This document shows, piece after piece, positions 14,427 to 57,876 of a stretch of 64,000 nt of DNA. The notes under the pieces were generated by a model. That model saw only the letters and a list, made by a program, of their open reading frames with translations. It made no database searches and had not been told where the DNA came from. The DNA is from Tetrahymena elliotti 4EA (taxonomy: Eukaryota; Ciliophora; Oligohymenophorea; Hymenostomatida; Tetrahymenidae): the NCBI GenBank assembly GCA_000231825.2, contig JH720315.1, positions 207,645 through 271,644 of the forward strand. The letters are read 5' to 3'. A program made the position numbers and the translations under genes. The number at the start of each line of letters is the position of its first letter. Within the stretch, counting starts at the first letter, position 1.

Positions 14427-16183
14427 ATTCAAAGTTAAGATATAAATAATGATTAGAATATAAATGTAAAATATAAATTATCAAAAGAAAGAGAAACAAA
14501 AATGTTTGAAGTAGATAAGGAGTTGATCTAGGGTTTAATTATTAGAATAATTTGATAATTAAATAAATATCAAATAAGAATTAATTTGGCCAAATATGAA
14601 TAAAAAATTCATAAGAATGCAAACCCATAAGATATTTAGTTAATTTTATGAATTGATTATAAATAAATGTTAGACAAGATAATTAATTAGTTAATGCTAA
14701 ATTTTCTTTATTAAGATATCTTGCTAAGATTTTAGCTATGATTTGCACTAAAAAAATAAATTATTAATTAGATTTATTAAAAATAAGTATTAAAAAATTC
14801 CCTTTAGTGTTGCCGCTATGACATAAATAGTTGAAGTGGAGTCAAACAAGGGATAAAGAGAAATGGGGTATTCAAGATATACTCTCCTAATACTATGGAG
14901 AACTATATAGCTATACCTGAATATTTTTTTTTCCCTCCAATCAAGCAAATCAATAATAACTCTAAAAATTAATTATTTTTTTGCAATAAATAAAGAAACT
15001 AATCAGTATTTTTAAATTTAAGTGCATTTGAAATAATATATTTTATTTTAATAATTATTGCTCAAATTTCCCTTGTTAATAAAATATCCTTTCCTTTTGT
15101 GTTAGTATAATATTTGGCCATTTTAAAACGAAGCATTTTTTTCTTGATTTGTATCACATTAAGATTAACAATATTATGATATTTTATCATTTGTATCAAA
15201 AATGAATTCTCTTTTTCTATCCCTTCAATACTATTTATAATAAAATGGTAAAATAATTACAATCAAATGATATATCGTGAATTATATCCTAATGAAAAGT
15301 GTTTATGGCTTGAAATCCTTCCTAATTCATTTTTTTAAACTTTATTTTGAAAAAACAAAATATCTCTTAACTTTGAGCTATATATTATTCAATTTTTAAA
15401 TACAAAAATAATTACTTTTTTGCTTTAGTATTCAATTTTAATACTCTCATACAAAAAACTAATGAATTTATAATTTAATATGCAAAATCCTTAAATTATA
15501 ATAAATATGCTTCTCTCTTTTATAAATTAACTTTGAGACGAGCTAAACAAAAATAATTACTTTCCTTTCATATTTTTAACATTTTATCAATCTTCATCAT
15601 CATTTTTTTAAATTAATTAAAATGATATTTACAAATTAAGAAATTTCAATCTTAAATTATTTCAAAACTTGATATTTTTTAATCAATACTTTATCCAAAG
15701 AATTAAAAGCTTCAAATTTTTTAGATTTTTAAAATGATAAAAGTGTCATATCAGAGTTATGAAGAAGCTCATTTAACAAATATTCAAGATTTACAAAAGA
15801 ATAAGCTTAAAACTTCATCTATTTGTGATATTTTAATTTTTAAAATATTAATTTAATTAATTGCTTTACAAAAATGATTAATTTTAAACTTTTTTTCAAT
15901 AAAAATAATTTTAATTAAAAAAATGTAATATAATTTCTTAAATTTTTTGGAGAAGGAGAATAGAAATTAAATAAAGGAAATTGTTTAGATTACAAAAATT
16001 TACTATGAACTAATAAGTCAACAATTTCATTTTTTTAAAGATTAATTCAATAAGATACTATTTAAAAACGTAAAATATTGAATAATTAAAAACATAAATA
16101 TTTACTTAAATTATTACTAAAAAAATAGATATAATTTGATTTTCTGTTTTGAAAAAGTGAAAAATAAATATTTTAGGTTAGAA
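14427..16183. other. Spacer; probably holds SEH1 exon 1
   Basis: The left part (14427-14850) should contain the unresolved first exon and first intron of SEH1 on the minus strand. The rest is AT-rich sequence with no gene recognised. The right end is the promoter side of the acidic type I membrane protein. Confidence 0.5.
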
Positions 16184-18036: not shown

Positions 18037-20287
18037 TCAAGATCCCTTATTTGATAAAAGTGAGGAAAAAATTCTAAAATCTAACTCACTAAGATTTTAG
18101 ATATTATTAGAGCAGCTTTATAAATATTCCTTAATTAATTACTATTAAAGGACTTGAGATTACGAAATTATAAATGATGATTCATAATAGGTCAACTTTT
18201 AATCTTTTTGTTAATGAAAAATAAATATTTATTTAGTAATCTTTAAATTAAAATAAATTGACCATTCAGTTTCTATTTATTTTTCAAATCTTCTATTTTT
18301 AAATCTAATATCCGATCAGAGCATCCAATAAGTTATAAAGCTGCATATTATTCTTGGCTCAATAGCACCATAATTGCCTTTTTGAGAGTTATCATGTCAT
18401 ATAAAAAAGTTTTGATATCCAAATTTTGATTAATTTGTTGGTCAATTTGTTAAAGTTATTGATTACTAAGACCTGTCTTTTACTGAATTCTTTTTTTTTG
18501 CCTGCATATGCTTTGAATAAAATTGTTAAGTTAATTTTAAAAATAGAAAAAAATTACGTAAAACGAAAAATTAGATTTTTAATTTTGCTTGAAAGAGTAG
18601 AATTTTAGAGAGCTAATAACTTTGGAATTGAATTATCCTAACACTATTATTATATTTATTGTTAAATTTATTCTAAATTTTATTAAATATTTGTCTCTAT
18701 ATTTTTTTAATCAAACTTTGACTAAATATTCTACTTCTATTTAGGCACCAAAAAGCTACTATCTCTAAAGTTGTTTTTTGAAGATTTTAATTATGATATT
18801 TAGCTTTTAGTTATTGAAATATTACTTGAGTTCAAATATTAATTAGGCTAACAATCTTATTTAGTCAAAGAAATTTCTTAAGTACTATTTGATTTTTCTT
18901 TGAAAAAATCAATACTTGTATTTTTTTGAGCTTATAAAACACCTAATTATTGACTTTGAAATGTTTTAAAACTTGTTTTTGGTTTATTATGCTATTCTTT
19001 TCTCTCTTTTTTGTTGTGCTGTAGGGTTTAATCTAATTACAATTTCTTTTTGTTTATAAATTTTGGTATTATATTTGACTCATCTTTTGACTCATCTATC
19101 AAATCTGATTCTTCTTGTCTTTAAATATTATTGCTATTATTATTATTATTATTTAGTATCAATTATTATTGGATTAGATTATTATCTATTTTATTTTGCT
19201 GGCCTTTATAGAGATTATTATCTTTTAAAATTTGTAAATACTTATCTTAGAACATTATCTTTAAGAAAGAAAAAAAGAGATCTTTTTGGATGGAGCTCTC
19301 TGAGACTTTCCTGCCTAAAATGCCTAAAAACATAAGACATGTAAAAATGCTACTAACAAAGGAGAGAATTTGTGGAACAGTTTAGTATTGAATGATAATC
19401 TGCTAAACAATCTCGTCTGGATATATAATTACGGTACTATAGCTTCCAATACCTATTTCTTAAGTTGCATATTATTTATCTAAAGTTGAATCTGACTAAG
19501 TATATTAAATAGGAGATTAAAATATGTGCTCTTCCTAGATTAAAGGACCTTTGTTAACTGAAGTGACTGATTGCTATGTTTTTAGTTGTGTAATTATTTA
19601 TTAATTTCCTACAGTGTAGACTATTACATTCCTATAATAGGTTTACATTTCTTAAGTTCTAGTATTATACTAAGATGTCAAAAGCTTCAGCTTCAATCCT
19701 GAATTGATACCATTGATCACTTTATCTATATCAGATTGGTTAGCACAGTTATTTGGAAGAAAAGTTTTTAAAAAATCTATTTCTAAACATCCATAAGTGT
19801 AGATTTGAATCTAAGAAATCAAATTCTTATGATTATTAAGAGAAAGTGTATAATTTGATATTTTTGAAAGATCTAAACAGAAAAATCCTACCAATTTTTT
19901 GTTTGTGCAATTAATAATGTCAAGCTATATAATAACAGACTCATCACCACTCTTTTGATAAAAGTATGCCAAATAAACTAAAAAAGTTTTATTTTAATCC
20001 AAAGTGTATTATGAGTTAGAATTCACATCATAGTCATATTTAAAAGCTACTAAGTCATTAGAAAGAGTAATGTTAACATAATCATCAGTAATAAAATTTT
20101 ATGACCTGAAATTAGGTTATATTTCATTTAAAATGTATTACCTCATTATGTAAACAAAATATGTTAATGTGGTTATGATTACTAAAAAAGTGAGGAGAGT
20201 TTCTATCAATGTTCCTTTTTTAGTTTAGCCACTACCAACGTTAAATGAAAATTAAGATGAAAATAAATCTAACTTTGAATAATGCAT
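18037..20287 (-). CDS. Family paralogue A: two-pass membrane protein, 713 aa
   Basis: Exons 20287-18723, 18672-18263 and 18203-18037 (minus strand) join in frame to 713 residues. It starts MHYSKLDLFSSQF, shared with B-E, followed by membrane segment 1 (~35-57, LLTFLVIITTLTYFVYIM). The extracellular or luminal part (~60-335) has four conserved cysteines in NCT, FCLDLS, YGCLEID and NCANQ contexts and the motif TSQYNTRTQ. Membrane segment 2 (VSSIFTCLMFLGILGR) precedes a long polar tail with an Asn run encoded by ATT repeats on the plus strand near 19138-19155. The C-terminal module (NLDIKTFLYDMITLKKAI, then YYESSFIISQ) is shared by all five copies. The 50-nt and 59-nt introns are inferred from frame and alignment. 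The family is not recognised, and function and location in the cell are unknown. A is the most diverged of the minus-strand copies. Confidence 0.8.
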
Positions 20288-20890
20288 TTTTACAATTACT
20301 TTATTCTACTTTGAAAACTACTTAATTCAATTATTATTAAAATTAATGAATAATCTCTAATTTTTATCAAAATTTTATTGTAAACTTGTTCTTATTAAAG
20401 CAAAGTAAATAATAAAAGTGTGTCAAACCTTCAGCCTTATTAACAACACATTATTATTTTAATTTTTATGATAACTTTTAAATTTTTATAAATTTTAAGA
20501 GATATTTTTAATGTTAATTTTTATCACTAAAAATAATTTTAAAAGTACTTTTATTTTTCTAGTTAAAAATATTTTAAATATAATCTTTCATTCACTGTTA
20601 TTATTTTTTAAAAAAAGACATTAAAAAACTTAATCTCTTTAATTATTTTTTTATTTGAACAAAAAAACGAAAGAAGAATTTAGAAAAATTAATTAGGCTG
20701 AATAACTTTTTAGAAAGCACAATCAATATTGATAAATTTCTTAAACAAATTTTTAAAAATAATGTTTTTATTCATAAAAATTTATTTAAAATTTGTTATA
20801 ACTTTTAGTCCAAAAAAATATTTTATGAAATAAAAAATCTGAGTTTAATATCAAGAAATTATTTTTTTTGTCTTGTGTTACTGATATTTT
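20288..20890. other. Spacer between paralogues A and B
   Basis: 600 bp, AT-rich, with no coding frame. It should contain the promoter of A (minus strand) and the 3' end of B. Confidence 0.6.
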
Positions 20891-23103
20891 TCACATTTTA
20901 TAACAATTTTTAATAGATGCTAAAATCCTTGAATCTAAATTAGACATATTTTCTTCATTCTCTGAACATCTTGCAAAAAACTCTTCTATATATTCCTTTT
21001 AAAATTTTTCTGACTGTAGAATGTAATTCTACATTTCATAGTGGCTCAGTTATTTTTCTTTTTCTTTATTTATGAATAATTTTTACAGTATTAAACTACA
21101 TTTTATTAAAATGAAATAATACCTATTTATTGCAAACTACAGTTAAATTTTGAGATGTCTAGATTTAAGAAGCTGGAAGAAAAACCCAATAAGTGAAGTG
21201 CTGCTAATTAGTCTTTTGTTAATAGCATTGAAACAGCTTTCTTTAAAAATATAATTTCTTTAACAAAATTTAAAATATTTAAATCCTTTTTGATCTATTC
21301 TTCAATTATGCTTAAAGGACAGTTGCTATTATCTTTGATCTCTTAATTTTGTTTTCTGAAAAGGCTATTCATTTTTAATTAAAATTTAATTAAAAAATAT
21401 TCAATGTATATTTTTAATTACTTGAGCCTGAACATGAGTTTCTAAAATTATTCTGAAGTTTTAGAATTATTAATTACATCTAATATTTTGGTAAATTTAC
21501 TAGGCATTCTTTCAAATTTCTCTTCTTTTGTTTTCTCTAAGAACAAAAGTTTCTTATTTTTAAAAGCAAACTTTTAGCTTAAACTTACATTATTAGAGTT
21601 GATCAAACTTTAATCTTTTTGAAAACTGCTCATTTAATATGTCGGAGATCCCGAAATTATTGATTCTTAAATGTTAAAATTGTTAATGTAGAAGTTTTAT
21701 TTAAATTTTTTGTCTGGTTTAAATTTAGACAATTCTAGACCACCTGATTCTTAATCATTTCTTTAATACTTTTCAAATTAAAACCTTTATTTTTCTTCTT
21801 ATTTTTAATTTATTTTGCTGGTTTAAGTGTCTAAATTAATTTCATTCGTATTTAAGGTTTACTCAACATCTAATAAAAATTTTTATTTATTAGTAAATGC
21901 AGGTACACATATTGGCTAACTATCGGGATATTCTTTCTCTAAGTTAAGTTAATCTCCTTTTCTTTGGTAGTCTTATTTGTTAGTTTCAGATTCTAAGTAA
22001 TCTGCTTCAGAATAACTAGATGATTAAAGACATTTATTTTTTTACACTATTTTTAAATAATCTACTTAATATAGATTTTTTAAAAAAAGCATAAAGAAGT
22101 CTTTATTAATTGATTTTTGAGAAACAAATCTACCAAAAATCCCTAAAAGCATTAAAAGTGTAAAGGTGCTATTTACTACAGCAAAAACTTGAGGTAAAGT
22201 GGGGTATTAGACTTAAATTTACTAAACAATTTCATCCAGAAATATTACTGCTGTACTATACGCTCCTGCTTAAATTGTATGAAGAGCATATTCCCTATCA
22301 TATCCCTAATCTTACTAAACATATTATATAGGAGAAGAAAATGAAGATGTAGATTAGACAACAAGCCCTTATTTAATTTAAGTGACTTGCTTTTAGGTTC
22401 TTAATTATGTCATTATAGATTAATTAGCTACTGTATAAACAATCGCATTTCTATAGTTGACTTATATTTCTTAAGATGTTGTATTGTATTAAGAAGTAAA
22501 TAACTTAAATCTTAAAACAGCATTCACACCATTAATCACACCATCTATTTCATTTTGAGTTGCACAATTATCTGGAATAGTAGTTTTTAAACTGTCCAGA
22601 TCTAAGCAGCCATACATAAATATTTCAATCATAGACTTCAGATTATCTTTTGTGCTAAGAGACAAAGTATAATTAGAAACAGTTGAGAAATCTAGACAAT
22701 AAAAACCTCTAAGGTTCTGATCAGTACATTCAGTCACATTTAGAGGTATAAATTAAGATAAGCTAGGACTATTATAATATAAATAAGCTATAAACACGAA
22801 ATATGTCTTATTTTGAGAAATTTATAGATTTCCTGAAGCCTGGCCTTATTCAAATCGAAATCCTATCATACTATTACTTAAGGGAATATCAATTTTATCT
22901 TCAGTTATAAAGCTTTAAGATCTAAAAACTGGTTCTATTTAATTAGTAAAGAAAAGTTGTATCATGTAAATTAAATATGCACAAGCTACTATTATAATCA
23001 ACAGAGAAAGAATAGTTCCAAACAAAGTCCCTCTTTTCCTTTATTGATTACCTATGTTAAAAGTAAATTGAGAAGAAAATAAATCTAATTTAGAATAAAG
23101 CAT
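20891..23103 (-). CDS. Family paralogue B: two-pass membrane protein, 715 aa
   Basis: Exons 23103-21123 and 21057-20891 join in frame to 715 residues. It begins MLYSKLDLFSSQFTFNIGN, then basic KRGTLFG before membrane segment 1 (ILSLLIIIVACAYLIYMI). The ectodomain carries FRSQSFITED, the four conserved cysteines (VTECT, FYCLDFS, YGCLDLD, DNCATQ) and TSQYNTTSQ. Membrane segment 2 (VVNSTFTLLMLLGIFGR) leads to a long Gln/Ser/Lys-rich tail and the conserved module KKDLNILNFVKEIIFLKKAV. The last 65-nt intron (21058-21122) is in phase 1, as in A, C, D and E, and the final exon starts with the HYEMQ block. The ectodomain is much better conserved than the tail. Function unknown. Confidence 0.85.
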
Positions 23104-24337
23104 TTTTTTCAATTTTTGTTTTTTTTGTTTTAATTTTTGATAAATAATTACAGATTATTTATTAGTTCTACTTTCTTATTTTAAATTAATTGAATAAAAA
23201 AATCACCACTAGCCTTAAATTGAAGCTGTTAGCTTTTTGTATTAATCGATTTATAAAAACCAATAAATATTTATTGATCCATTAATCTTATTCTAAATTT
23301 AAATCAGTTCATAATAAGCAAATAGGCCTGAAATCGATTTTTTATAGAAAATACTTTTGGTTAAGATTTTTTAAGAAATAAAACAACATAAAATAATTCA
23401 TCTAAATAAAAATATATTCACTATTTTGGCAGATAATTTTCAAAAATGAAATAATTCGAGTTTAATTTAAAAAAGATGTTGATTTTAAAAATAATAAAAT
23501 GAAAGAAATTAGATTTTAATTCTGAATTATTAAAAGTTATTACTTTCTATGAAAAAATATAATTGTGAGTTGAAACTATCTTATTTTTCAACTCTTCACT
23601 TCATTTGCCATGAATAATAAAATGAGAAAAGAATTTGCCTAATTTAAAATTTGTAAAATTGATAATTAATCTTCTGGAAAAATTTCTAATCACCATAAAA
23701 AAATAAATAAATGTTTTTTGAGTCTAATTATTTGTTTTTAGTTTTACTTTATTTAATAAGAATTTAGGACTAAAAAAATATTGATTGTCACTTTTCCATT
23801 ATAATTAATAAACTCTTATGAAATAAGAAAAAAAAAATATTTTTTATTCTTTATGTTTTTAAAGACTGCTCAAGCATCAAATAGTTTTTTTAATTAAATT
23901 TTATTAAGAGTAATCATAGGTAAATTATTAATCATTAATTTTTATCTTATCAAAATTAGCAAAGTAAACACATTTTCTAATCTAATTTTTACTAAATAAA
24001 AATAGCAATAAAATTTTTTAATTTTTTTAATCTTATTAAAATAGATATTTTAAAATTAATTTATTTTTTTCTATGAACAAAGTGTTTTTTTTTCATAAAA
24101 CAAATTACTAAATTTTGTTGAATTAGAAATATAAATATTTTAAAATATATTAACTAAAATGTATTTAAAACAATAATAGTACAAAAATTAATTTTAGGAT
24201 ATTTAATTAGAGGTGCGTACAGAGCGCTGAATAATTTTTTGCATATTTGACACAAAATTTTTTGCTTAGTCCCACTTGCACAATCAGCAAACTAGAAAAA
24301 GATATAAGTTAAAGAATTAATTTTAATTAATATTAGA
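23104..24337. other. AT-rich spacer with a small GC-richer patch
   Basis: The promoter side of paralogue B, otherwise AT-rich. A GC-richer patch at 24212-24296 (GAGGTGCGTACAGAGCGCTG and following) stands out; it could be a terminal-repeat relic of the nearby mariner element or an RNA, but I found no partner copy. Confidence 0.45.
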
Positions 24338-24628
24338 ATGAGCAATAAAGCCAGTATATTATTATATTGTATATTAGTAATCTTGGACTAAAATCATTGA
24401 TATTTCTTTTTTTCTCAGTAGTATTTTAAGTAATTTAATTCATCCTAATTAAATTAAAAAGGATATAAATTCACTACCAAAAACCTATTAATACCCACAA
24501 CATCAAGCAGATTATAATAAACTATTACAAATAATTAGATACCAAGCAAATCTGCTCCATAGGATTACTTTAAAATCTCAAATGCTAATAAAGATTACAC
24601 AATATATTAAATAAACAAATTATAATGA
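24338..24628 (+). CDS. Possible small protein with one intron, 82 aa
   Basis: ATG at 24338 opens MSNKASILLYCIL, a signal-like hydrophobic start. If a 42-nt intron (24377-24418, GTAATC...TCTCAG) is removed, the frame continues for 70 more codons to TGA at 24626-24628. Both exons are multiples of three. The second part is polar (Gln, Asn, Ser, Thr rich), with no cysteines and no family recognised. The intron has the size and ends seen in real genes here. The piece is short and sits beside a decayed transposon, so it may be chance. Confidence 0.35.
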
Positions 24629-24834
24629 ATGAATGAGTTGATTGAGGTGGAGATAGATTGTCCTAGTAATTATAACACTATAAATTTAAGAAAACAGATG
24701 TATCATAATTCTAATTTATGAATGACAAGAATAATTAATTTTTATAAATGTTTGAAATGAATATGAAACCATATAAAAAACCATGAAATTAAATTTCTGT
24801 TACGTTCTATTATTTAATTCAATTTATTTGGGAT

Positions 24835-25370
24835 ATTATCAATGAATTTTTTAATTTATTTACAAATTTCTTTGTCCTCAAGAAAGGTTCTTTTTACGTA
24901 TTGGAGATATTCTTCAAAATTGTCAAAGTTTTAACTTACCTCTCAACTTTCCATTTCACAACGTTTCAAATACCTTCAATATGGCTTATGTCTGGATTTT
25001 GGCTTACCCAAAGTAACAGCTTTATTGATTAGCTTTCAAAATAATCTAAGACTAGGCTTCCAGTATGAGGTCTGGTGTTATCTTGTTGGAAGTAAGTATC
25101 TTCATCAATAAATTCTTAACATTCTATTTTTATTTGATTGTATCTTTGTGTTAATTTAAACAAACACTTCCAACACTTTTTTCTAAGGGTATATATATTT
25201 GATTCTTAACAAAATTTCAAGTTCCATAAAAATAATAATGCTGAAATTTAATGAAATTTGTTTAGTAGATACTTTCCATTAAATAAATTTCATTTAATTT
25301 AGAATACCAAAGTAGCGAAATATTATCTCTTAGCATTTTTTAGAAAAGAATTACAAAAATGGACTCATGC
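24835..25370 (-). pseudogene. Decayed Tc1/mariner transposase (DD34E)
   Basis: On the minus strand the second half of a Tc1/mariner catalytic domain is visible. YFQQDNTRPHTG (second Asp, codon 25082-25080) is followed by LDYFESQSIKLL, QNPDISHIEG (Glu codon 24977-24975) and VVKWKVER. Exactly 34 residues separate the Asp and Glu, the DD34E spacing. It is broken: TGA sits at 24966-24968 where the conserved Trp after IEG is expected, another TGA occurs at 25217-25219, and the C-terminal helix (FEEYLQYVKRTFLEDKEICK) continues in a different frame after about 24930. The first Asp region is not recognisable. No terminal inverted repeats were confirmed. The element lies between family paralogues B and C. 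Confidence 0.85.
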
Positions 25371-25579
25371 GTAATTGTACAGATTAAACTTATTTTAGTA
25401 TTTTCACTTATTTATTTATTTTTTATGAAAAAATTTTCCATAATTAGATAATTAAATGAAATTATTTTTCTCATGATTTTTTGAGAAATAGTTTATTTTT
25501 ATATTAAATATTCTTTTTGAATGATAATTATTTTATATTATTTTTAATGCTATTTAAGCTGGCTTTTAAAAAAAATGGA

Positions 25580-27750
25580 TCAATTTAAGTGACACTTTTA
25601 GATGGATGATAATATTTTTTTATCTAGACCACTTAAATCTCCTTAAGTAGAACATCTTGATAAAAACTATTGTATTTAATACTCTTAAAATTTTTATGAT
25701 TAAGAAATAGCAAATTGTACTTCATAGTGACTCAATTTTTAATCTTTTTCTTTATAATCAAAATAAATAAATAAAATTGTTTTTATGATAAGCTTACCTA
25801 TATCATCTAAATTAATGTCTTTACCTCTTAAATTCAATTCTAAAAAACTATTTGAGCATCCTATGAGGTGCATTGCTGCTAACTAATCTTTTGTTAATAT
25901 CATCATGACAGCTTTTTTCAATAAGATAATGTCAGATACAAAATTTAAAATATTTAAATCTTTTTTTATCTAGTATTGAATCTTTTATAATTTTAAGCCT
26001 TTCAGATCTAATTTCAAATTTTTTTTGAAGGAGCTTTAATATAAATGAAAAAATGTATAAGTAATTAGTTTTTTAAAAATATTAATTACTGCTTTTCAAA
26101 AATGTTGTTTTTCATATTATTTGAACAATTTGCATTTTAAATTGATTAAAAATGTTTAATTAAGTCTTCCCTTTAATTATCATTTAGATTATAATCATTA
26201 TCTTTGCCTGAAATAAACGTTTAATTAATTTATTTATTAAAACCAGATTTTATTAAAGTAAAATTTTAAGGAGATATTGAATAGAAGAAATCTCTTTAAA
26301 CAGGCTTATTCTAGAAATTAACTTCTCCTGACATGATAGAATCAGCATCAGTGATAAAATTTGATTTTAATAGGTTTACGTTATTTATTGGCCCTTAAAA
26401 TATATTATTTTATTCAATATTTATTTAAGGAATACATTAGGTTCCTATTTTTTAACTACAACTCTATGGCAGAAATAAGTTATTTTACTTGCTTGAGATT
26501 GATTCATAATCTTTATTTTATTCCGCAGATTATTTTCTCTAAATTTAACTATTTGGAATTGATACTAGGGGTAAATTATTTGTATTTTGACTTTCTTAAT
26601 GATGGAATGACTTTTTTTCTTCAAAATCCTACTATCTCTCTAAGTTTGATGATACTTCTTCCTGAATTTACAAGGGAGGCTTTTTAGTCCTTAAAATCTA
26701 CAAATAATTATCTTAGTATATATTTTTTAAAAACAGCATCAAAAAGTCTTTATTAATTGAGTTCTATGACACAATTCTACCTAAAATTCCAGAAAACATC
26801 AAAAGAGTAAATATACTATTCACTAGTGCAAAAACTTAGGGTAAGGTAGGATATTAAATTTGAATTTATTAAATGATTTCATCTACAAAAATTAAACAAA
26901 CGCTATATGCACCACCTCCTATATTTTTAAGAGCATACTATCTATCATAGCTTAAATCCTGTTAAATATATTGAATAGGAGAATAAAAACTTTATTATGT
27001 TTAAACAACTAAGCCTTATTTGATAGAAGTATTTTAATTCTGAGTTTTTAATTATGTTATTATTGACTAACTAGCTATAGTATATACATATGCATTTCTA
27101 TAGTTCGCCTCCATTCTTTAAGAAGTTGTATTATACTGAGACGTGTACAATTTGAATCTTAAAACAGAATTTATTCCATTAACCATGTTGTCTATATCGC
27201 TTTGTTCAGCACAATTATCTGGGACAAATGTTTTTAAAGAATCTATGTCTCTGCATCCATAAGTAAGAATTTATACTGATGATTTGATATTCTGATTAGT
27301 GTTAAGAGATAGTGTATAGTTTTATACGCTTGAGAAATCTAAACATTTAAATCCTAAAAGATTAGAATCAGTGCAGTTAATAACAGAAAGTGGAATAAAT
27401 TAATTGTCATTAGGAGAACTATAAAAGAAGAAGGCTAAATAAACTAAATATGTTTTGTCTGGTGAGAGTTATTAAGCATTAGCATTGGTTCCATATTCAA
27501 ATCTAAATCCAACTAATTCGTTTTTAAGGGGTACTTCTATTAAATCATCATTAATGAAGCTTTAAGATCTAAAGGTAGGCTCAATTTAATTATTAGCATA
27601 TTATTAGATTATGTAAACAAAGTATGATATGGTTATTATTAAAATGCTAAGGGAAAGCATAACTCCAAATAATGTACCTCTTTTGGTCTAGTAATTCCCT
27701 GTATTAAATGAAAAATGAGTAGAAAAAAAATCAAATTTAGAATAGATCAT
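25580..27750 (-). CDS. Family paralogue C: two-pass membrane protein, about 693 aa
   Basis: Starts MIYSKFDFFSTHFSFNTGN at 27750. TKRGTLFG precedes membrane segment 1 (SLSILIITISYFVYII). Then come FRSQSFINDD, the four conserved cysteines (INCT, FKCLDFS, YGCRDID, DNCAEQ) and TSQYNTTSQ. Membrane segment 2 is LVNSIFTLLMFSGILGR. The tail is long and polar, and the C-terminal module KKDLNILNFVSDIILLKKAV is present. The last intron (25744-25797, phase 1) and the final exon (HYEVQFAISQ, ending KCHLN and TGA) match the other copies. In the tail near 26100 the frame changes. A very short intron (about 35-38 nt, from GTTCAAAT to AAAAG or CAG) would restore it; a frameshift is the alternative. The closest relative in the window is D. 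Confidence 0.8.
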
Positions 27751-29903
27751 TTTTGTTAAAATTGTGAACAATGCTAAGCTTTTAAGAGCTCTTTTACAGT
27801 TTTATTGAGTATTCTTTTTGATCAAAAAATTACTACAATTTAATTAATTTTTAAAAGTAAATGAATTAATTAAGCAAAATTAATTTATTTACCTATTCAT
27901 TTACAAATAAGTTGTTTTAAAAACTATGTTTTTCTTAATTTTTAAAAGCAAAAATAATTCAAACAATTCTATGAATTTAGAATAGTTTATTCTAACAGAA
28001 AAAACAACTTGTTATTTAAATTTGTTAAATATTTATTAGGTGATAAAAAGATATTATCAGATAAGAAAGTTTATTTTTAGATAAAAAAAAGTCAACATTT
28101 TTTTAGTCGCTTTAGAAATATTTTTGCTTAAAATTAATAAATTAAAGAAATATGATGTTTAATTTGTTTGAATTATTGATTGTCTTTCTATTTTAAAAAG
28201 AATGCTAATGATAACCTATGTTAAATTTATTTAAAAATATGCTTGCATCCTCCATAAATATATTTTAAAATGATAATAGAAATAAAATTTCTTTTTTTTA
28301 ATTTGATTCATTTTATTAATTGTTCTTACTTAAAAAATAGGTTTGCATTCTCCCTAAAAATATTTAAAATGGTAATATGAATAAAAAATTATTTTTATTT
28401 AATTTGATTCACTTTATTACTTGTTCGTTCATACTGAATAAATATCTCAGATCCACAAAATTAAATGATAAAATAGCAAATAGAATTTTAAAATGAATAT
28501 TAAATATATTAAACTATTGATAAAAATAATTCTAATATGAATTGTTTTGGTATATTATAGTGATAGTAAATTTTGAATAGATTGACAAAAAACACATATT
28601 AATAAATTTATCACTTCTCAATTAAACTTTTAATTTTAATTTCTAATTCCTAAATTTACTACTCTTATTATTTTAAAAATTATATTAATTTTGGCCAGTT
28701 TTCTATTAACTATTTTTCATCCTAAACATTTTATTATATATTAAAATTTTACTTATTCGCATCCATCATCTATCCATTATTGATAGATTAAAACTAAATA
28801 ATGTTATTTGCAGGAAAAAACTGAAAACTATTAAGATTATTGAACATTTATTGCAAAGTATTTTAATTTGGAAAAATATTGCTTGCTTGTGTATCATTTT
28901 AATTGCTTACATTTCTTGAAGGATTAATATCACTTACTTCATTGCTTTCTTACTTTTTTGGTTTATGAATTGTATCAATTTCACTCATAATTTATTATTA
29001 CGAAGAGAAAAATCTTATGCTATCAACCGGTTCAAGTAATAAAGCCTTTTTACTTTGCTTTATGTTTTAATTTTAATGATAAGCTGAAAGCATTTCTCTT
29101 TCTTTTTGTATGGATGTCATTTTTGTTGTAAAAGTTCTTTCCTTCTTAGTATATTTTGTTTACAAAATTCCTTTATTGATATGAAATTGATATTTTTAAC
29201 AAATTATAATAATTTATGTGTGATACATCTCAAATAAACAAAACATTAAATACTCCTTAAATTAAAAAAATACTATGTATTAATAAATATTTTACTTTAA
29301 TAAAAAAAAGTCAATCCACTAATTAATTCAATTTACTCTTTTTTCTTAAAAACTAAAATACTATTATAATAATTTATATTAAGTTATTAAACTAAATTTC
29401 TAGAAAGGAAATTCAGTTTAATTCAAAATAAAAAAAAATAAATAAATTAACTTTAAAAAATATATTCTAAGTTTTAAACAAAAACAAAAAATAATCAACT
29501 AAAAAAAACAAAGGTTTAATATGATATCTGTCAATATATTAATAGCTTTCTTTAAATACTTTTTTCTTTAAGGATATCATTTTTAATTTCTGATACTACC
29601 TATCCTCATCATTTTTGACTCCATTTATATTGTGAAAAAATATTAAAAAATTTCATTAACTAAAATAATTGTTTTTAATATTTTATTAAAAGTTTTCTTT
29701 TACAATTTTTTTTAATTAATTTAGTTATTTTTACTGTATATTTATTTTATTAATCATGCAGAAGTTTTGGATTTTTTTCTAAAAAAGGTAAAAAAAATAA
29801 TACTGAAAAACTTTTTACACATGCTTTATAATTAATTATTAAAGTTGACTATTTCTGTTTTGAGCTATCATCAATTACTAATAAATTTAAATTAATGAGC
29901 TAT
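27751..29903. other. AT-rich spacer between C and D, with a tandem duplication
   Basis: 2.1 kb with no coding frame. It contains a diverged tandem duplication of ~95 bp at 28231-28426, annotated separately. Confidence 0.6.
28231..28426. repeat. Tandem duplication, two ~95-bp copies
   Basis: Copy 1 (28231-28325) and copy 2 (28331-28426) both run from a TAAAAAATA-type start through TTGCATYCTCC, AAAATGRTAATA and TTTAATTTGATTCA to TTGTTC. They differ at scattered bases and small indels, so the duplication is not recent. It lies in the spacer upstream of paralogue C. Confidence 0.75.
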
Positions 29904-32056
29904 TCAAAATTTATGACATTTTTTGATTGAAGACAGAATTCTTTGATCTATTGTATTTGTGTCGATATTTTGATTTGTTCTTCGTAAGAAATTATCAATA
30001 TATTATTGTTAAAATTTATTTGAATATAGAATTGCATATTGCATTTCATAGTGACTTATCTGTTTACTTTTTTCTTAAATACAAAAATTAAATATTAACT
30101 GTTTGCTCTTAGTAATTAAATATTTTTACCTAGTTCATCTAGCTAAAGTTTAGGGCTAATTAAATTGATATCTAAAAAATCTGATGAGCACCCAACTATC
30201 TAAAGTGCTGCTAATTGATCTGGAGATAATATCATCATGATAGCTTTTTTTAAGAATATGATATCCTTGACAAAATTTAAAATGTTGAGATCTTTTTTTA
30301 TTTAAAATTATATTTTTTGCAGTTATATTTGATCTAAGTCTTAGATTTATTCTTTTTTCAGATAACTTTGTTAAAAAATGAATATTAAATTTAAATTATA
30401 TTATAAAAAAATATTTTACTTGTTGTTAAAAATAGTATTAAATAAAGTTTATGAAGAATTACTATTTTTAAAGCTTTAGATATCTTAATTTTTTTGTTTA
30501 TCTATTTGAATCTTTTCTTTTTTAGTTTATATTTATTGTGAAAAAGTCTTCCTTATGATGAAATTTGTTTTTATAAAGCTAGGATTGTAAGATATTGAAG
30601 GGGATACAGACTCTCTTTAACCATTCTTTTATTAGTAGCCTTTTCCATCTTAAATAATAGAATCAACTTCCTCGGAGTATGTATTTGCTAATGAATTTTA
30701 TTTATCTTAATTATGTTAATCAGTCATTTAAACCGTAAGATCTTAAGTAGCATATAAATTATTTGTTCTTTTTAAATTATTTAGCATTCTTAATTAGTTA
30801 TCTATGTTATTTTATGATTCAAACTCTTTTACGGTTTTGGATTTACTTATAAGAGCTGGGATAAATATACTTGGTGCATTTTAATCTTTTTCTTGACAGT
30901 CATTTTAATCTTTTTCAGTTTACTGTTTCTATTCTACATCATTAATTTAATCAGAATTCTTTAAAGAGGTAATTTGTTATCCTTAATTATAAATACTCTT
31001 TGTTATTTATAAATAACTTTCTTAGTATATATTCTTTAAGAAAAGCATAAGAAAATCTTTTTAAATTGAACTTTGTGAGACCATCCTTCCAAAAATTCCT
31101 AAAAGCATCATCAATGTAAATATACTATTTACTAGAGCAAATACTTAAGGTAATGTGGGATACTATATTTATATTTGTTAAACTATTTCATCAACTAACA
31201 ACAGAGCTACATTATATGCACCAGCTCCTACATGATTAAGTGCGTATTGTCTATCATAGCTTAGATCTTATTGCGTGTATTAAATTGGAGAAGAGAAAGT
31301 GGATTAAGATTAAACGATCAACCCTTCTTTTATTGAAGTATTTTATTACTATGTCTTTAATTATGTGATTATTGACTAGCTTGCAATTGTATAAACATAA
31401 GCATTTCTATAATTAATTTATACTTTTTGAGAAGTTGTATTATATTATGACGTATATAGTTTGAATCTTAATACTGAATTTACACCATTAATCATATTAT
31501 CTATTTCAGTTTATTCAGCACAATTATCTGGTACTGAAGTTTTTAAAGTATCAATATCAAGACAACCATAAGTTAGAATCTGAATAGAAGATTTTTAGTT
31601 TTGTTTTGTGTCTAATGATAAAGTATAATTTGATATCTTACTAAAGTCTAGGCACTTAAATCCTAATAGATCTGAATTAGTGCAATCAATCACATCTAGA
31701 GGAATGAATTAATTATTGTCTGGAGACGCATAAAAATAGAAAGCTAAGTAAACTAAATAAGTTTTATTTTTTTGTAGCTCTTGTTAATTTTAATTACCAT
31801 ATTCAAATCTAAAGCCAACTAAATCACTATTCATAGGAACTTCTATTAAATCATTGTTTATAAAACTTTATGATCTAAAGACGGGCTCTATTTGATTAGT
31901 AATGTATTATTAAATTATGTATATGAAGTAAGACATTGTAATTATAAACACTCCCAATGAGAGTATAGTACCAAATAGAGTTCCTCTTTTATTTTAATGG
32001 TTGCCAGTATTAAAAGAGAAGTGGGAAGAAAATAAATCTAACTTAGAATAAAGCAT
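29904..32056 (-). CDS. Family paralogue D: two-pass membrane protein, 698 aa
   Basis: Exons 32056-30130 and 30073-29904 join in frame to 698 residues (an in-frame ATG directly upstream would add one Met). It starts MLYSKLDLFSSHFSFNTGN. NKRGTLFG precedes membrane segment 1 (ILSLGVFIITMSYFIYII). FRSQSFINND, cysteines in IDCT, FKCLDFS, YGCLDID and DNCAEQ, and TSQYNTTSQ follow. Membrane segment 2 is LVNSIFTLMMLLGIFGR. The tail is Gln/Ser/Lys rich and ends in KKDLNILNFVKDIIFLKKAI. The final phase-1 intron is 56 nt (30074-30129), and the last exon opens with the HYEMQYAI block. It lacks the tail intron seen in A and E. The gene is head-to-head with E across 2.6 kb. Confidence 0.86.
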
Positions 32057-34633
32057 CATTAATTTTGAAATCTTTTATACAACAGAATAATTACTTTTTA
32101 ATATTCTGAAAGAACTTCTACTATTTATAGAAAAATCTTTATATTTATTGATATATTAATTATAAATTTGTTGATTAGGATTTGTTATTCTTTTTGTTTT
32201 TTAATTGATATTAAAATAAGCATTGTCTCCTTTTTTCTAAAACAAGCCAAATTCTTAATTATCCTTTACCACTTAATTTTATAAATCCATTATTTTAAGA
32301 AAGATTAAAGATAGATGATAAAATATAACTAGAAAATATTTATCATTGATTAGATTTTAGTTAATAGAAAATTACAAAAAACTAGAAAAAAGAGCTTGTT
32401 TTTACACTAAAATTGAAGAGTTACTATCTAAGTGTTAGAAGTTGATATTATTTAAATATAAATTCATATATTAATTAATTCTTATCTTTTATAAGGATAG
32501 AAGATACTTAATGCTACTTAATAAAATATGTAAATCATTTTTTTTATGTAATCTTTCTTTTTATTATACGATGTTGCTTTTAGAAAGAATATTTAATAAG
32601 CATGTTTATGTAGATTTCATTGATTTATAGTTTGAATATTAAATAATAGAATTTTTTTAATAGAAAACAAATAAAAATTATTTTAAAAAGCATCGAAAAA
32701 ATTCATTTGAATTGGTTTAAGTAAAAAGAACTAAGAAAAATCACATTTTGAAACATAAATGCAATAATTTTGTTAAAATAAAATATTATCGTACTTTTGT
32801 TTTTTTTTTATAAATAAAAATCTAGGTTATTCCTAATATGAGTGTTTTAAATCATAACATATTTCAAAAAATAATTTTCTTTATTTTTATTTTCTTTTCC
32901 CAAAATATTTTTGTGATGTAAAATTAGAGATTTAACCAATTTTTGAGCCAAACTAAATTTTGAAAACCAAAATGAAATCTATTATCTTTAATTAAACTAA
33001 AAAAATATATACATTAATTTTTTTAAAAAGAAATATATATGAGAATATATTTTTCTTCAATATATTTTCTTAAATTTTACTAATTATTTGAGATAATAAA
33101 AGATAATTTTTAACAATAAATATTACTGAGCAATAGGTTCTCATTTGTTTTCAAACTAAACAAAATCTTTATAAATACTTTTTATTTAAATTATTTACAC
33201 AACTAAGTTACTTTCTTTTTTGTTTGAATAACAATACTAATTCTAATTTTATTAAAATTTCTTTTGTTTTTAAGAAAAATTTTACTCAACTTTTAAATTC
33301 TGTTTTAGAAATTTGATTAATAGTCTTTATTTACAATAAAAAGAATTATTAAATATTTACATTAAAAAATAATTGAAGGAATTAAAATTGAAAATTATCT
33401 GTTAGTTATCAATCTCCACTTAACTTGAAGATTAAGACTACATATTTTTTCACAATTATCATGAAATTGCTAAATATTTAAAACACCTTTTTATCTTCAA
33501 AGTTATTAACAATTTTGCGCTAAAATATTTAATTTAAAATATTGCTGGCTTTAAAACATTTAAAAACTAATTAATTATTTTTATTGTATTTTATTATTAA
33601 TAATACATAAATAAATAGAATTAAGTAGGGTGTATGTAAACTTTTATTTCTTAAAATTTTCTAAGAAGGTAAAAGTCAATTTTTTTTCAATATAAAATAT
33701 ATTTGATAAAATATAAGATGAATACTCTGTTCATTTTAAATAACCAATATATTATTAATTAGGATGATTCATTAAATTTAAGTGTAACAATACAAAATAT
33801 TGAAAAATATTTAAATAGAAGAATATAGAACATAATTAAGCAAAAGGACTACCAAATAGGTACTTTTTTTTTTCTCAACTGATATTGAGAAAATTTAAAA
33901 TTAATTTATCTTTTGTTTAGCTAAATTTCAAAATTCTTATTCAAATAAAAGGCTAAAAATATGCTTTAAAACAAATAAAACATTAAATGTATTTTTTTGA
34001 TATAAAGAAGAATTAAATACTTCACAAAAGCTTTATTCATATCAAATAATTTATTATGATGAGTATTAAAAAATACTATACTAAATAATAAGAAATAACT
34101 CTTTTTATGATGTATTGTTATCTTCAAAGTTTTATTAGTAGAGTTTATACTTATTCTTTGAATTGTATGGTAAATTTCTATGATTTACTTTTTTTTATAT
34201 TTAAGTTAATAATTTAACGAACAAAATTAAGAAGAAAAATAAGTAAATAAACTTTATTTTGTCAACACTAATATAATAAAAAAATGATAAATAAAACTAA
34301 TAAGAAATAACTTCTTTTAAGGATAATCTTTTATCTGGAGTTTTCTTGGCAGATTTTAAGCTTTTTTTTTTTAATTTACATGGTTATAATTATCTATTTA
34401 AGATTATTTATTTATTCATTAATAACAAACCAAAAGGTATAAAGTAAATTAGTACATTAATTAAATAACAAATCAATAATTGGCTTAATCGATAAAGTAA
34501 TAATAAATTAATTAAGAAAAAAATAAAGGTTGGCTAGTAAAAAGAATAAAAAAAAAAATACTTTTGTTTAACAAATTACTAATTAAATTAGCTTACAAGT
34601 AAGAAAAAAAGATAGGAACAAATAAAAGAACAA
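32057..34633. other. AT-rich divergent intergenic region (D / E)
   Basis: 2.6 kb between the start codons of paralogues D (minus) and E (plus). No reading frame of gene-like composition was recognised. It must contain the promoters of both. Confidence 0.6.
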
Positions 34634-37172
34634 ATGGTGTACTAAAAGTTAGATTTATTCTCTTCTCAATTTTAATTTAATCTTGGAAATTAGCAGACAA
34701 AGAAAGCTACGCTGTTTGGTAGTCTTTTGTCAATAATAGTTGTAACAATAACACTTACTTATTTTGTTTATATGATAAATTAGTACGCAACTAATTAGTT
34801 GTAGCCAAGTTTTAGATAGTAAAGTTTTGTAACAGAATAAAATATTGAGCTTGAGGTTGATAAAAATTTAATAGGATATAAATTTCATTATGGGTTACCC
34901 ACTCTGAATAATTAGACTTATTTTGTTGTGATTGCATTTTTTACTCAAAAGATTAACAATAACAGCACTTCTTACCCATTAAATATTATTGAGTGTACAC
35001 ATCCTAGCATGGTTGGTTATTAGTGCCTTGATTTCTCTTAAGTACCTTACAATAAAATGAATTTTGATTCTAGAAATAATATTCAATCTTAGATAAGAAT
35101 TTTCACCTATGGATGCAGGGATATTGATTATGTTAAGACGAAACAAGGAAATAATTGCGCGAGCCAGTAAGAAATAGATAACTAGATAAATCATTTTAGT
35201 TCCAGTATTAGTTTGAAATTATTTACCTCTTAGTATAATTCTTCATCTCAGGAGATGCAAGAAAACTATAGAAACCTTGGCATGCCAACAAACTCCAATC
35301 AGAATGTTATTAGCTAAATAAAGGCATAAAAGTAACTAACAACTGTAAAGTCGGGGATAATAATTTAATCTTCTACAACTAAAGTTTCTCCTATTTCATA
35401 TGACTAACAGACACTCACACTTGATAGATCAGATACTATGAAACAAAGTGGAATAAATAGTTTCAATATGATTTACTTTTACTTGGATGAGATTGTTTAT
35501 GAAACAGACATCTAATACCTCACCCTACCTGCAGTTTTGGCTTCAATAAATAGTATATTTAGTCTTTTGATGATTTTAGGCTATCTTGGGAGATCTGTTT
35601 CATCTATTTACATTCAAAAAGATTTTTTCATGCTTTTCTTAAAGAATTTATTTCTCGAAGATTACTTTTAGATTTTAAAATCAAATAACTTACACTAGGA
35701 ATCATCTTCTTAGTAAAAGTAACAAATGGAAGAAATAGAAATTTAATCAAATATAAATGAAAACGAATTTAAAATCGATGTTGAGAGAGAAGAAAATATG
35801 CTAGAATGTACAATTATTCCAGAATTTAGTAATAAACCAAAAATCTCTTTAGATCTTAAAAAGACAAATACATTGAATCAATATAATATTAGTAGAGGGA
35901 TTTCTCTTAACACTTCTCTTTCATAAAAAAAATAAGATAAAAATCAAATAAATATTTATGAAGGTAAATTTTCTGCCTGTGATGATAATGTATTCATTCC
36001 AGAATCACCTGCCCTTCAGCAAATAAACCCTAAAAGCTTTAATTTGAATATGTTCTCTGATTCTGTTTTATAATCATCAACTTAAAAAATTTAGGATACA
36101 CAATCTAAGCAGCAAAGTCCGAAATCTCTATTAAAACCAAGCTAAATTTAATCTAACTTCAAAAAGGAATCCTTAAAATAATCAAGTCTCATAAAAGAAG
36201 GTGTAAAAATATAAACGTAATCTAGTTCATCTAATTCGAATGAATTTGAGTTTGTGGCTAAGAAACTTCAAGCGATTCAAGATTAAAAAATATCTTCAAA
36301 AATTTAACAAATTGCCTCTAAATTTGTTTGGTAATTCTTAATTTTTTGATTGTTATTTTCTTCATAAAGAATAAAAATTTTGCATCAAACTAATAAACAT
36401 TTCGCATAAGAAAAAGCATATTTCTTAATATTTCTTTTTGAAAAATTATCAAATTTATAGCTATCAAAGAATAAGTTTTCCTTTTTCAATTAAGGTTGAG
36501 TTTTTTAACGAGGAAGTCTGTCTTAAATCAATTAGATAGAACCTATTTTAACTTAAAATAGGGATTTAATTTCATATATATACTATTTTTTTTATTCAGC
36601 AATAAATTTCACTTTTAGAATTGATGCATTCAAAATTTTTATTTAGGAAAATGCAATTTGTTTAAAATTTTCAATTTTTTAAGCAAAAATTAATGATTTG
36701 ATTTTAAGTTTCTGCAGAAACAAAAAGGCATCATTTATTAAAGGATTAGACAGATAAAAGCAAGAGCTAATTGAAAAATAGGTTATGCAGGATTTAGATA
36801 TATTAAATTTTATTAAAGACATTATGTTTTTAAAGAAAGCAATCATGCTTATTTTGACAAAAGATCAGTATGCCGCTGTTTCGCTTATTGGTTTATCATC
36901 TTAATTTTTTGATTTAAATCAGACTAACTTTAACATAAATTAAACATAATTAGGTAAAACATTATTTTTTTAAGTATCTTTTCTAAATTTTTTCTTTTTT
37001 GAAAGAAAATAATTTTAGTCCTTATGAAGGATAGTTCATTATAGCTTAATCTAATGAGCTTCAATAACAATATCTTAAAAATTTTTTGGTCAGGTGTTCT
37101 TATGGATCAGGAGAAATGAGTAATCTAGATAAAAGAATATTTTAGTCGCTAAAAAGAATATGCTGTTAATGA
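34634..37172 (+). CDS. Family paralogue E: two-pass membrane protein, 751 aa
   Basis: Exons 34634-36330, 36562-36953 and 37006-37172 join in frame to 751 residues. It starts MVYQKLDLFSSQFQFNLGN. TKKATLFG precedes membrane segment 1 (LLSIIVVTITLTYFVYMI). The ectodomain has FRQQSFVTE, cysteines in IECT, YQCLDFS, YGCRDID and NCASQ, and TSQYNSSSQ. Membrane segment 2 is SINSIFSLLMILGYLGR. The tail (~350 residues) is Ser/Gln/Lys rich. The 231-nt intron at 36331-36561 lies where A also has one. The C-terminal module reads QDLDILNFIKDIMFLKKAI. The final phase-1 intron (36954-37005) and last exon (YEGQFIIAQ, SYGSGEMSNLDKRIF) complete the family pattern. It is the only copy on the plus strand and has the longest tail. 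Confidence 0.86.
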
Positions 37173-38309: not shown

Positions 38310-38699
38310 ATGAATTATGATCCAGATGATGATGAAATTGATGTCTTTTTAGATAGCAGAGACTTTGCAAAAAAAGTATTAAATTATCAAGGGGTGACAG
38401 TGGTAGAATTTTATGCTACCTGGTGCCCTCCTTGTTGTTAGTTTTAATTGATTAAAAAAGAATATCTTCCTCTACGAAAAAATAGAAATTATTATAATTG
38501 GTATAAAATTGATATAGAAAAAAACTTAGAATTTGCAAAAGGCTTCGAGTTAGAAGGAGTTCCTTCTGTGTTCTTATTTTATAAAGGTTAAATTATTGAC
38601 CGTTTTGTAGGTCTTGATCTAAAAGGTTTTGATCGCATAAAATAAACAGCATTATAATTAGTAACATAGCCAATCCATAGCAAGAACTCTTTCGAATGA
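38310..38699 (+). CDS. Thioredoxin-domain protein with WCPPC active site, 129 aa
   Basis: A single frame of 129 codons. After an acidic N-terminus (MNYDPDDDEIDVF) the thioredoxin fold is clear: VTVVEFYATWCPPC (active-site Cys39 and Cys42), YKIDIEKNLEFAKGFE, then the cis-Pro loop GVPSVFLFYKGQII and FVGLD. The length and lack of signal peptide indicate a soluble cytosolic protein. The active site is CPPC, not the CGPC of classical thioredoxin, which shifts redox potential and is common in thioredoxin-like and TlpA-like proteins. Both catalytic cysteines are present, so oxidoreductase activity is expected. No intron. Confidence 0.92.
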
Positions 38700-42151: not shown

Positions 42152-45100
42152 ATGAATAAAAATCGCTTTAAATAATAAGTATCACCATTTAACTAACTGA
42201 ATAATATGGTTAGCAAAGAAGTTAGAGTTGAATCTAACAATTAAAGCATATTAAATGTTAGTGAGAGGAATGATTCCAAGACAGATTTTCTCTTCAAAAA
42301 GGGATTGGCGAAAGAGAAAAAATTGGATGAAAACTTGCAGTATAATAACTCTTTTTAGAGTTAATTTGATTCAGATAAATAATAATTAAAGTCACTACTA
42401 AATAGTGTAAATATTAAAAGTATAGAAAGCCCAGTACAAGGCCATGATAATTAAGTAGATTAAATTAAATAGATATCCCAATTTTAAAGGTTAGAAAGTA
42501 GTTATTCAGATTATGCTACTGTTACTTAGCCTCAGTAAAATAATAAGAAAAAGAACTCTATTTTTGCTGTAGGCAAAAAAGTAAATTAAGTTCATTCTCT
42601 TGAAAAAACCAATACTCCACTGACCTAACAAAAAAATCAATAATAAGAATAATCTATTAATATTTTGCATTTAGGTAAAAGGAATAGTAATGATATGTAA
42701 AGAGAAAATCTTTTCACTAACATTAATTAATTTACTAAGTAAAAAAATAAATTTTTTTCTTTGTTTGGAAATAATTTTTTAGATAAGAGTGAGACAAACT
42801 CTTCAATAAATCATAGGAAATCTATTTTTAGGTGGAATATTGTGTCTAAATTTGAAAATGTTCTTGCATTTATTAATATCCTGAAAAATAATTCTACTAT
42901 GCAAGAAAGCTATAGAAGTTTAAACTAGAAGCATTATGAACTAATAGGAGATAAATCTGATATAAATGTAGATTTCAAATCCGTTTTTCCTGGAAGACTC
43001 AAATATCTGTTTGATAGAACTATCCATAGGATTCCAATTTTTTCTCCTGAATCACATGGAATTATATTTTGGAACTTCTTAAACTGCATTTGCATTTTAG
43101 TCCAGTTCATAGCTATTCCATTAAAGATAAGCTTTTTTATTGATTTCGATGATTTTTTGAGCTAATTCTTTTTATTTTACATCCATGCATTCATATTTAT
43201 TTCTGAAATTCTAATACGTTTCAATTTAAGTTTCTATTAGGAAGGAATTTTAGTGCAAAGCCGCTTCAAAATTATTTAAAATTATATGTTTTAATCTTAC
43301 TTTTTTTGGCTAGATTTAATAACTACCGTAATATTTCTTGGGAGCAAAGAAAGCAATAGCCCCTTTTTAATTATAATAGTTGTTTTACGTATTTTTTAGC
43401 TCTTTTAACTTGTAAACGATATAGATGAACACTACTAACTTACCTAGAGATTTTCTTCACTTTGGAATTTAATAAAGTTACTTTTAATTATCATGATTGT
43501 AGCTCATTTTACTGGATGTGGTTTTCATTATGTGGCTTACTTATAAAGTGAAGATGGTATTATTACTTGGTTAGATAAATAGAAAATTTTTAATGAAGAA
43601 TGGCCAATTAGGTATCTCAATTCACTTTATTGGGCTTCAATTACAATGGTTACTGTGGGTTATGGTGATATAGTACCTGTTACTTCAGTTGAAAAAATTT
43701 ATGTCATAACTATGACTTTGATAAGTGCAGGTGTATTTGCTTATTCGATAGACACAATTGGAGGCATTTTCGGAGAAATACAAAAAAAGAAGCTAGTCAT
43801 GAAGTAATTTTCTATAAATAGATTGAGTTTTATTTAATGAAATTTTAAAGAACTTAAAAGAGACATATTTCTAATTATATGAGATCTCGTGGAATAAATG
43901 GGCAACTTTAAATAGAAGTACTCAAATATTTAGAAAATGTAAAGTAAGAAGAAATTGAAATTGCAAACAAAGGCTAAGAAATAATTCATATTTTGAGTGA
44001 ATAAATTCAAGAAAAATTATAATCAGATTATTATGGAAGAATTTTGCAAGAATCAAAAACTTTTTAAGGCTACAGTTTGTAGTTTTTACAAGAAGTATCT
44101 TAAATTATGAAGGAGTAACTTTATGGTCCAGGAGAAGTCCTATTTAGTTTAGGATAGCATGATGATAGAATGCTTTTTATAATAAAAGGAAATGTTTAGT
44201 TATTTATCCCTATCTAAAAGAATAAATAAATAATTGAGTTGTAAAAACTCGAAGTAAATAAATTTTTTTTTAAATATTTTTTTGAAATGAAAAATTTTAA
44301 AGAAGGGTGAAGTAGGTCATTATGGATTTTTTACATAGCAACAGAGGTCAACAAGTTTAAGGAGCTTAGGAGTTTCTATAATTGCTTATATACCCAGAGA
44401 GGATTTCATTTAAATTCTTTAAAAATTTCCTTCTGACCATGTAAATTTTGAAAAATCGAAATAAATTAATATTTATTTTATTAGGAGAAATTTTGTTAGA
44501 CAAAAGATATTTTGATATTTCAATAATAGAAAAATAAAATAAAATGCTTTGCTTGTTAGGTTAATGGGCATTCCATAATGAATTGCTAGAAAGTACACTA
44601 CAAACGTGATAGATAAACATTAATATGGAAGTATAATTATAACTACGAACAATAACGTAATGAGTACGATAGAAAACTAATAATTAAAAAGAATACGTTT
44701 AGTTTGAAAAAATAAGTTAGACAGAATTTATTGAAGTTAAGGGGTGAAAAAATGTCCAATATTTATTAGATTGAGTTTTTACAAGATGATTTTGATTGGC
44801 TTGAAAAAAATAAAGATCAAACAATATTCTAGGTTATCCCTAAACTTTATTACTAAAATGGAGAATACGGTATAAATTCTGAAACAGATTTTAGTTATTC
44901 CTCAGAAGATTTTAATTCAATAAACTCAGACTAGTAATTGAGTGATGAGAGTTTTTTGGATTCAAGCATTCCAAATTCACCATCACATGGATTTTGGAAC
45001 AATTAAAAAAAGAGAGCAAATATTGATGAAGATATACAAATCTTAGATGATAAGGTTTTAAACTCGTAAAGAGATTAGGTGAATTCCAAAAATACTTAAA

Positions 45101-57700: not shown

Positions 57701-57876
57701 CTGAAGGAGAATCTAATGGTATGTCTGATTCAGATTCTCCTCACAATTCTAAAAGTATAAAACAAGTAAAATCTGATCTAATAAGTATTGTTGATTTAGA
57801 TCATCTAAAAAGAAAGAAAGAAGATTCTATTATTAGAAGCAAAGACACTCTTAAAAGCATAAACTCTAATTATTGA
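54796..57876 (+). CDS. ABHD17-like alpha/beta hydrolase (protein depalmitoylase) with long tail, 1026 aa
   Basis: A single uninterrupted frame of 1026 codons. The N-terminus MALCLFKCFSACGCRDYIISK has the cysteine cluster followed by KFAFYPQNPGY, as in ABHD17 proteins, where the cysteines are palmitoylated and target the protein to membranes. After a charged insert the hydrolase fold follows: VIYSHGNSTDIG (oxyanion loop), YDYSGYGKSQG, YGQSVGSGPS (nucleophile Ser319), IIHGTNDQDI (Asp389) and GAGHNDIEH (His420). All three catalytic residues are present. ABHD17 enzymes remove S-palmitate from peripheral membrane proteins such as Ras. Human forms are ~300-330 residues; here about 600 extra residues of Ser/Asn/Gln/Lys-rich, probably disordered, sequence follow the domain. 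No intron is needed. It lies downstream of kinase 2 on the same strand. Confidence 0.92.

Follow-up and report, generated by a model that had tools for sequence, protein, structure and literature searches.

The window analysed here, a 64,000-nt stretch of DNA, corresponds to C23:207645-271644 in a 90-Mb, 134-contig assembly, the same that was used for the genome-wide searches described below. It is ciliate nuclear DNA, with long open reading frames that remain open under genetic code 6 and numerous in-frame TAA and TAG codons. An initial annotation had proposed an array of five related genes (A to E); all five are present when the sequence is translated with the ciliate code (table 6), and their starts and stops were placed. 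They are listed below, followed by the parts of gene B referred to in the text (TM1 and TM2 being the membrane segments).

18037-20287, minus strand: gene A, family member (C-terminal module at 18300-18452, last exon at 18037-18186; intron model partial)
20891-23103, minus strand: gene B, family member (C-terminal module at 21166-21309, modelled last intron at 21064-21122)
25580-27750, minus strand: gene C, family member (C-terminal module at 25841-25981, modelled last intron at 25750-25797)
29904-32056, minus strand: gene D, family member (C-terminal module at 30173-30313, modelled last intron at 30074-30129)
34634-37172, plus strand (inverted): gene E, family member (C-terminal module at 36770-36910, modelled last intron at 36954-37005)
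22039-23103, minus strand: conserved core of B (N-terminus, TM1, ectodomain and TM2; 355 aa), which served as search query
22948-23031, minus strand: TM1 of B (helix 27-52 in the P0003 structure model)
22126-22200, minus strand: TM2 of B (helix 303-343 in the P0003 structure model)
21166-21309, minus strand: conserved C-terminal helical module of B (KKDLNILNFV...LKKAV)

In the gene models of B, C, D and E the last intron separates the last exon from the core of the C-terminal module. The window also contains a Sof1-like WD40 protein (7214-8242, plus strand), a match to the Tetrahymena H/ACA snoRNA model TtnuHACA21 (14797-14926, plus strand; 164.7 bits), a thioredoxin (38310-38696, plus strand), an ion channel (PF00520, 56.5 bits; 42152-43837, plus strand, ∼5 kb from the array), an alpha/beta hydrolase (54796-57873, plus strand) and a cysteine-rich protein with growth-factor-receptor/furin-like repeats (61991-63784, minus strand).

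Over residues 1-355, proteins A, C, D and E show 46-66% identity to B (A, 52%), and 97 of the 361 columns in the alignment of the five cores are invariant, which is far beyond chance. The TSQYN, NCAxQ and YGC motifs described earlier occur in all five proteins; the start motif YSKxDLFS holds for A, B and D (YSKLDLFS), but is replaced by YSKFDFFS in C and by YQKLDLFS in E. Conservation was then measured in 68 distinct relatives, chosen from 119 protein matches by their length and absence of fusion (the 69-relative set mentioned below is the same, with P0006 present twice). The proposed arrangement of two membrane segments flanking a conserved ectodomain was supported: the four ectodomain cysteines (positions 126, 136, 166 and 180) are each present in 68 of 68 relatives, and sequons recur at N98 (57/68), N144 (55/68) and N207 (55/68). 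This conservation of both cysteines and sequons fits an ectodomain that faces a glycosylating, oxidising compartment. Among the 68 relatives, mean pairwise identity came to 0.505 in the N-terminus, 0.384 in TM1, 0.447 in the ectodomain and 0.444 in TM2; it was 0.177 in the tail and 0.396 in the C-terminal module. The module is conserved and the tail is the least conserved part, both as previously claimed, but the ectodomain is surpassed as the best conserved part by the short N-terminus. When dN/dS was computed for the cores, values of 0.37 or lower were obtained in 24 of 30 comparisons, the other six giving no value; synonymous differences are near saturation (pS 0.47-0.86). Where measurable, the core is under purifying selection within the array.

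Relatives in other Tetrahymena species were found for all five genes. Among 141 fetched relatives, the closest to A was P0026 from T. utriculariae (71%). The T. thermophila orthologues of B and E are P0003 (84%) and P0055 (79%), and the best relatives of C and D in that species are P0004 (80%) and P0006 (85%), respectively; the gene models of P0001, P0002 and P0004 each contain parts of two family members. A tree of 48 rows, built from selected members, places A to E within a single 11-row set (support 99/99), and gives the pairs B-P0003 and E-P0055 a support of 100/100 each. By this tree, neither A nor E is a recent copy of its neighbours.

The array turned out to be a subset of a genome-wide family. 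Searches of the genome with three family cores rendered 115, 108 and 111 matches. A pool of 146 matches (all 115 from the first search, plus 22 of the 108 and 9 of the 111, hand-picked as new or extending) was merged into 125 loci on 44 contigs, 104 of them spanning at least 900 nt; these counts are lower bounds, and the 125 include fragments and loci with TGA stops. Eighty loci are grouped in 17 clusters (two or more members within 25 kb). The most distant members used (on contigs C96, C41 and C11), with 20-27% identity to B, show the same plan and keep the four cysteines. As its distribution in the genome indicates, the C-terminal module is family-specific, 78 of its 82 matches being found downstream of a core on the same strand, no more than 2.5 kb away. 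One of the remaining four, on contig C24 (L054, G000:C24:293500-299500, minus strand), is accompanied by a TM2-like stretch; none of the three core searches gave a match on this contig, and the locus probably represents a member that has degenerated or diverged strongly. All 119 protein homologues are from Tetrahymena (97 from T. thermophila), as are the best 120 of the 132 matches of a second search, which scored only the candidates sharing most words. No match outside Tetrahymena was among those listed in either search, at a sensitivity bounded by shared words, and as far as both searches reach the expansion appears restricted to this genus. Single-copy orthologues with a housekeeping role outside the cluster, which would also have contradicted the initial annotation, did not appear among the listed matches, all of them from Tetrahymena.

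Surface adhesion, mating-type or self-recognition receptors, in which the fold would be a scaffold and signalling would proceed via the tail and the C-terminal module, might be encoded by just such a multigene family, large and clustered, whose members share cysteines and sequons but vary in their tails. This explanation is improbable, since the core is well kept between species orthologues (84% for B and P0003) instead of being hypervariable, purifying selection operates within the array where computable, and no adhesion or lectin domain appeared among the Pfam matches of the five window proteins and 69 relatives.

Searches for sequence links to known families gave nothing above cut-off in Pfam or NCBIfam for the five window proteins. 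A PDB sequence search with B found no match, and a profile of the 69 relatives, compared with all PDB chain sequences at E ≤10, retrieved one unrelated match only. The DEG/ENaC/ASIC Pfam family matched none of the five (E ≤1) or of the 69 proteins (E ≤0.1). The one Pfam family to match more than three of the 69 relatives was ERGIC_N (PF13850), with weak matches to 22 of them at E ≤0.1 (lowest E, 2.1e-5). None of the window proteins passes its cut-off of 27 bits; E shows a weak match at residues 19-75 (16.2 bits). In the whole genome, PF13850 found five matches, namely two true Erv genes followed by three distant family paralogues, one scoring 28.4 bits, which passes, one 27.4 bits with its neighbours in frame and 26.7 alone, and one 25.7 bits, which misses. 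A clear Pfam match to a characterised family, which would have contradicted the initial annotation, was thus not found for the five genes, although two ERGIC_N-matching paralogues come close to it. Alignment by hhalign of the family N-terminus plus TM1 with an Erv46 alignment gave E 4.3e-4 and a probability of 34%. COPIIcoated_ERV (PF07970) was absent from the matches of the five window proteins and the 69 relatives, and its four matches in the whole genome (on C9, C3 and C2) do not coincide with any family locus.

The ERGIC_N matches, the three family paralogues among the five found with PF13850 and the hhalign result all speak for an expanded set of ERGIC/Erv-type cargo receptors or adaptors with no pore, whose ectodomain would bind secreted or surface cargo in the ER-Golgi, secretory-granule or endosomal lumen while the tail meets coats. 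In common with ERGIC/Erv41-Erv46 proteins (PF13850 plus PF07970), the family has an N-terminal D-x-F...T-x-x-G motif with TM1, and a pair of membrane segments that flank a luminal beta domain. It differs from them in lacking PF07970, in its long cytosolic tail and in matching the Erv41p fold less well than a genuine Erv46 does. Overall, we consider cargo receptors of this kind somewhat unlikely.

The structure model examined was that of P0003, the T. thermophila orthologue of B, and not of a window protein. Its predicted fold, including that of the ectodomain, is of the PAC/ASIC kind, and perhaps also like that of Erv41, with PAC as the best match, both membrane segments included; the plan of PAC/TMEM206 (two membrane segments and a beta ectodomain with the PAC fold) is reproduced in the predicted model. 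The C-terminal module was predicted with low confidence (pLDDT ∼55-75). The family resembles the proton-activated chloride channel PAC/TMEM206/ASOR in having two TM helices and a beta-rich ectodomain of similar size, but the profile of 69 relatives, compared with PDB chains, shows no sequence similarity to it. From DEG/ENaC/ASIC channels it differs in the absence of any Pfam match and in the size of the ectodomain (∼250 residues, as opposed to ASIC chains of ∼400-450, of which ∼225-250 aligned). Near the cytosolic end of TM2, position 325 is basic in 67/69 and 48/48 rows; that this residue corresponds to PAC Lys319 could not be demonstrated. As a control, the genome's own Erv46/ERGIC3 was used (L043:684-1727, G000:C9). 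The model of this genuine Erv46 matches Erv41p, then PAC/TMEM206, P2X and ASIC channels, and according to Foldseek its predicted fold matches PAC better than that of the family model does. Erv41p (3zlc_B) matched the family model at rank 34 (E 6.3e-4), as compared with E 6.9e-15 for the genuine Erv46; none of the family model's 50 VIA rows is Erv41p, an absence that is no proof. The presence of Erv41p among the fold matches, and the fact that genuine Erv46 matches PAC as well, also favour cargo receptors. Literature searches found no paper combining Erv46 with 'acid-sensing', or Tetrahymena with TMEM206.

Conservation along the membrane segments is periodic in TM1 (P = 0.022) and in an extended TM2 (P = 0.008), though not significantly so in the TM2 core (P = 0.08). 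No hydropathy periodicity was seen in either segment, and neither has a polar face. Since TM1 conservation was also periodic in the Erv46 control (P = 0.0002), this test for a pore does not discriminate. The fold match might also reflect no more than a widespread arrangement in which two helices flank a beta-sandwich, the family then being an unrelated ciliate invention; we give this explanation a low probability, as low as that of recognition receptors.

What is established here is a sequence family, its copy number, its topology features, its predicted fold, its mislabelling (see below) and purifying selection where measurable. The explanation we favour over cargo receptors, recognition proteins and an unrelated fold, albeit tentatively and at somewhat less than even odds, is a family of channel-like sensory or endosomal receptors with an ERGIC-PAC-ASIC architecture and ∼100 or more two-pass members. 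Each would begin with a short N-terminus in the cytosol that carries an ERGIC_N-like motif, continue with TM1, a beta-rich ectodomain of ∼250 residues and TM2, and end in a fast-diverging cytosolic tail and the family-specific helical C-terminal module. The proteins would form oligomers, probably trimers by analogy with PAC and ASIC; the ectodomain, exposed outside the cell or in the endosomal lumen, may sense a ligand or protons, TM2 could line or control a pore or pass the signal on, and the tail and C-terminal module might serve trafficking, assembly or output. The constant sensor and variable cytosolic output suggested by the initial annotation may hold. A repertoire of channel-like receptors, chemosensory or osmotic/endosomal, would be consistent with the large set of divergent ectodomains, several of which are kept as orthologues across species. 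Against a channel we count the lack of a sequence link to any channel in the PDB profile search, the lack of a polar face in either TM segment, and the Erv46 control sharing the PAC match.

The existence of ∼125 ciliate loci with a PAC-like predicted fold is unexpected, though membership of the PAC family fails at the level of sequence. By this predicted fold the family members are candidate channels or receptors, and may be a large unstudied set; further, the Erv46 control suggests that genuine Erv46 shares the architecture, which makes a link between ERGIC proteins and channels testable. A bolder proposal, which we think rather unlikely, is that of a hitherto unrecognised Tetrahymena sensory superfamily, in which ∼100 or more PAC/ASIC-like channels, each a trimer, would derive from an ERGIC-type ancestor. 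If true, ciliates would gain a candidate chemoreceptor or osmoreceptor repertoire, and Erv/ERGIC cargo receptors would be placed on one evolutionary tree with PAC, ASIC and P2X channels. Tagging and knock-out are easy in Tetrahymena, so localisation and function are directly testable.

The family had been described as unrecognised. This agrees with the lack of Pfam and NCBIfam matches above cut-off for the five proteins, but the sequences are already in databases: 71 of the 97 T. thermophila homologues are named 'AMP-binding enzyme family protein'. Identity as an AMP-binding enzyme was rejected, PF00501 being found in none of the five window proteins, the 69 relatives or a set of ten proteins (four of which are also within the 69). 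It was present in one protein of a scanned set of eight, P0109, a fused gene model. Residues 1-288 of P0109 match a family gene on contig C12 (62%), and the remainder matches acyl-CoA ligase sequence downstream on the same strand. In this region (L053:404-8642, G000:C12:953403-961641) the family gene, which retains its own C-terminal module (L053:2495-2903) ahead of the ligases, is followed by the same-strand acyl-CoA ligases as separate neighbours: a copy in pieces (L053:3510-5089, 74-91% to P0109) and an open copy (L053:6606-8642, 68% to P0109), either of which is a possible fusion partner in P0109. This arrangement is likely to be the source of the database name, which would most simply be explained as an error propagated from the fusion of a gene model with neighbouring acyl-CoA ligase genes. 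No paper pairing Tetrahymena with 'AMP-binding enzyme family protein' was found in a literature search; two contain both 'Tetrahymena thermophila' and 'AMP-binding enzyme'. At least 71 genes of the model organism T. thermophila appear to bear a wrong functional name.

Since family gene models are often fused, two further composite proteins were set aside as evidence. In P0094 (T. thermophila) and P0112 (T. utriculariae) the family core leads into a long C-terminal part that contains TPR repeats, before which lies a stretch that looks kinase-like; the TPR part may be a true fusion or a gene-model error common to the two species.
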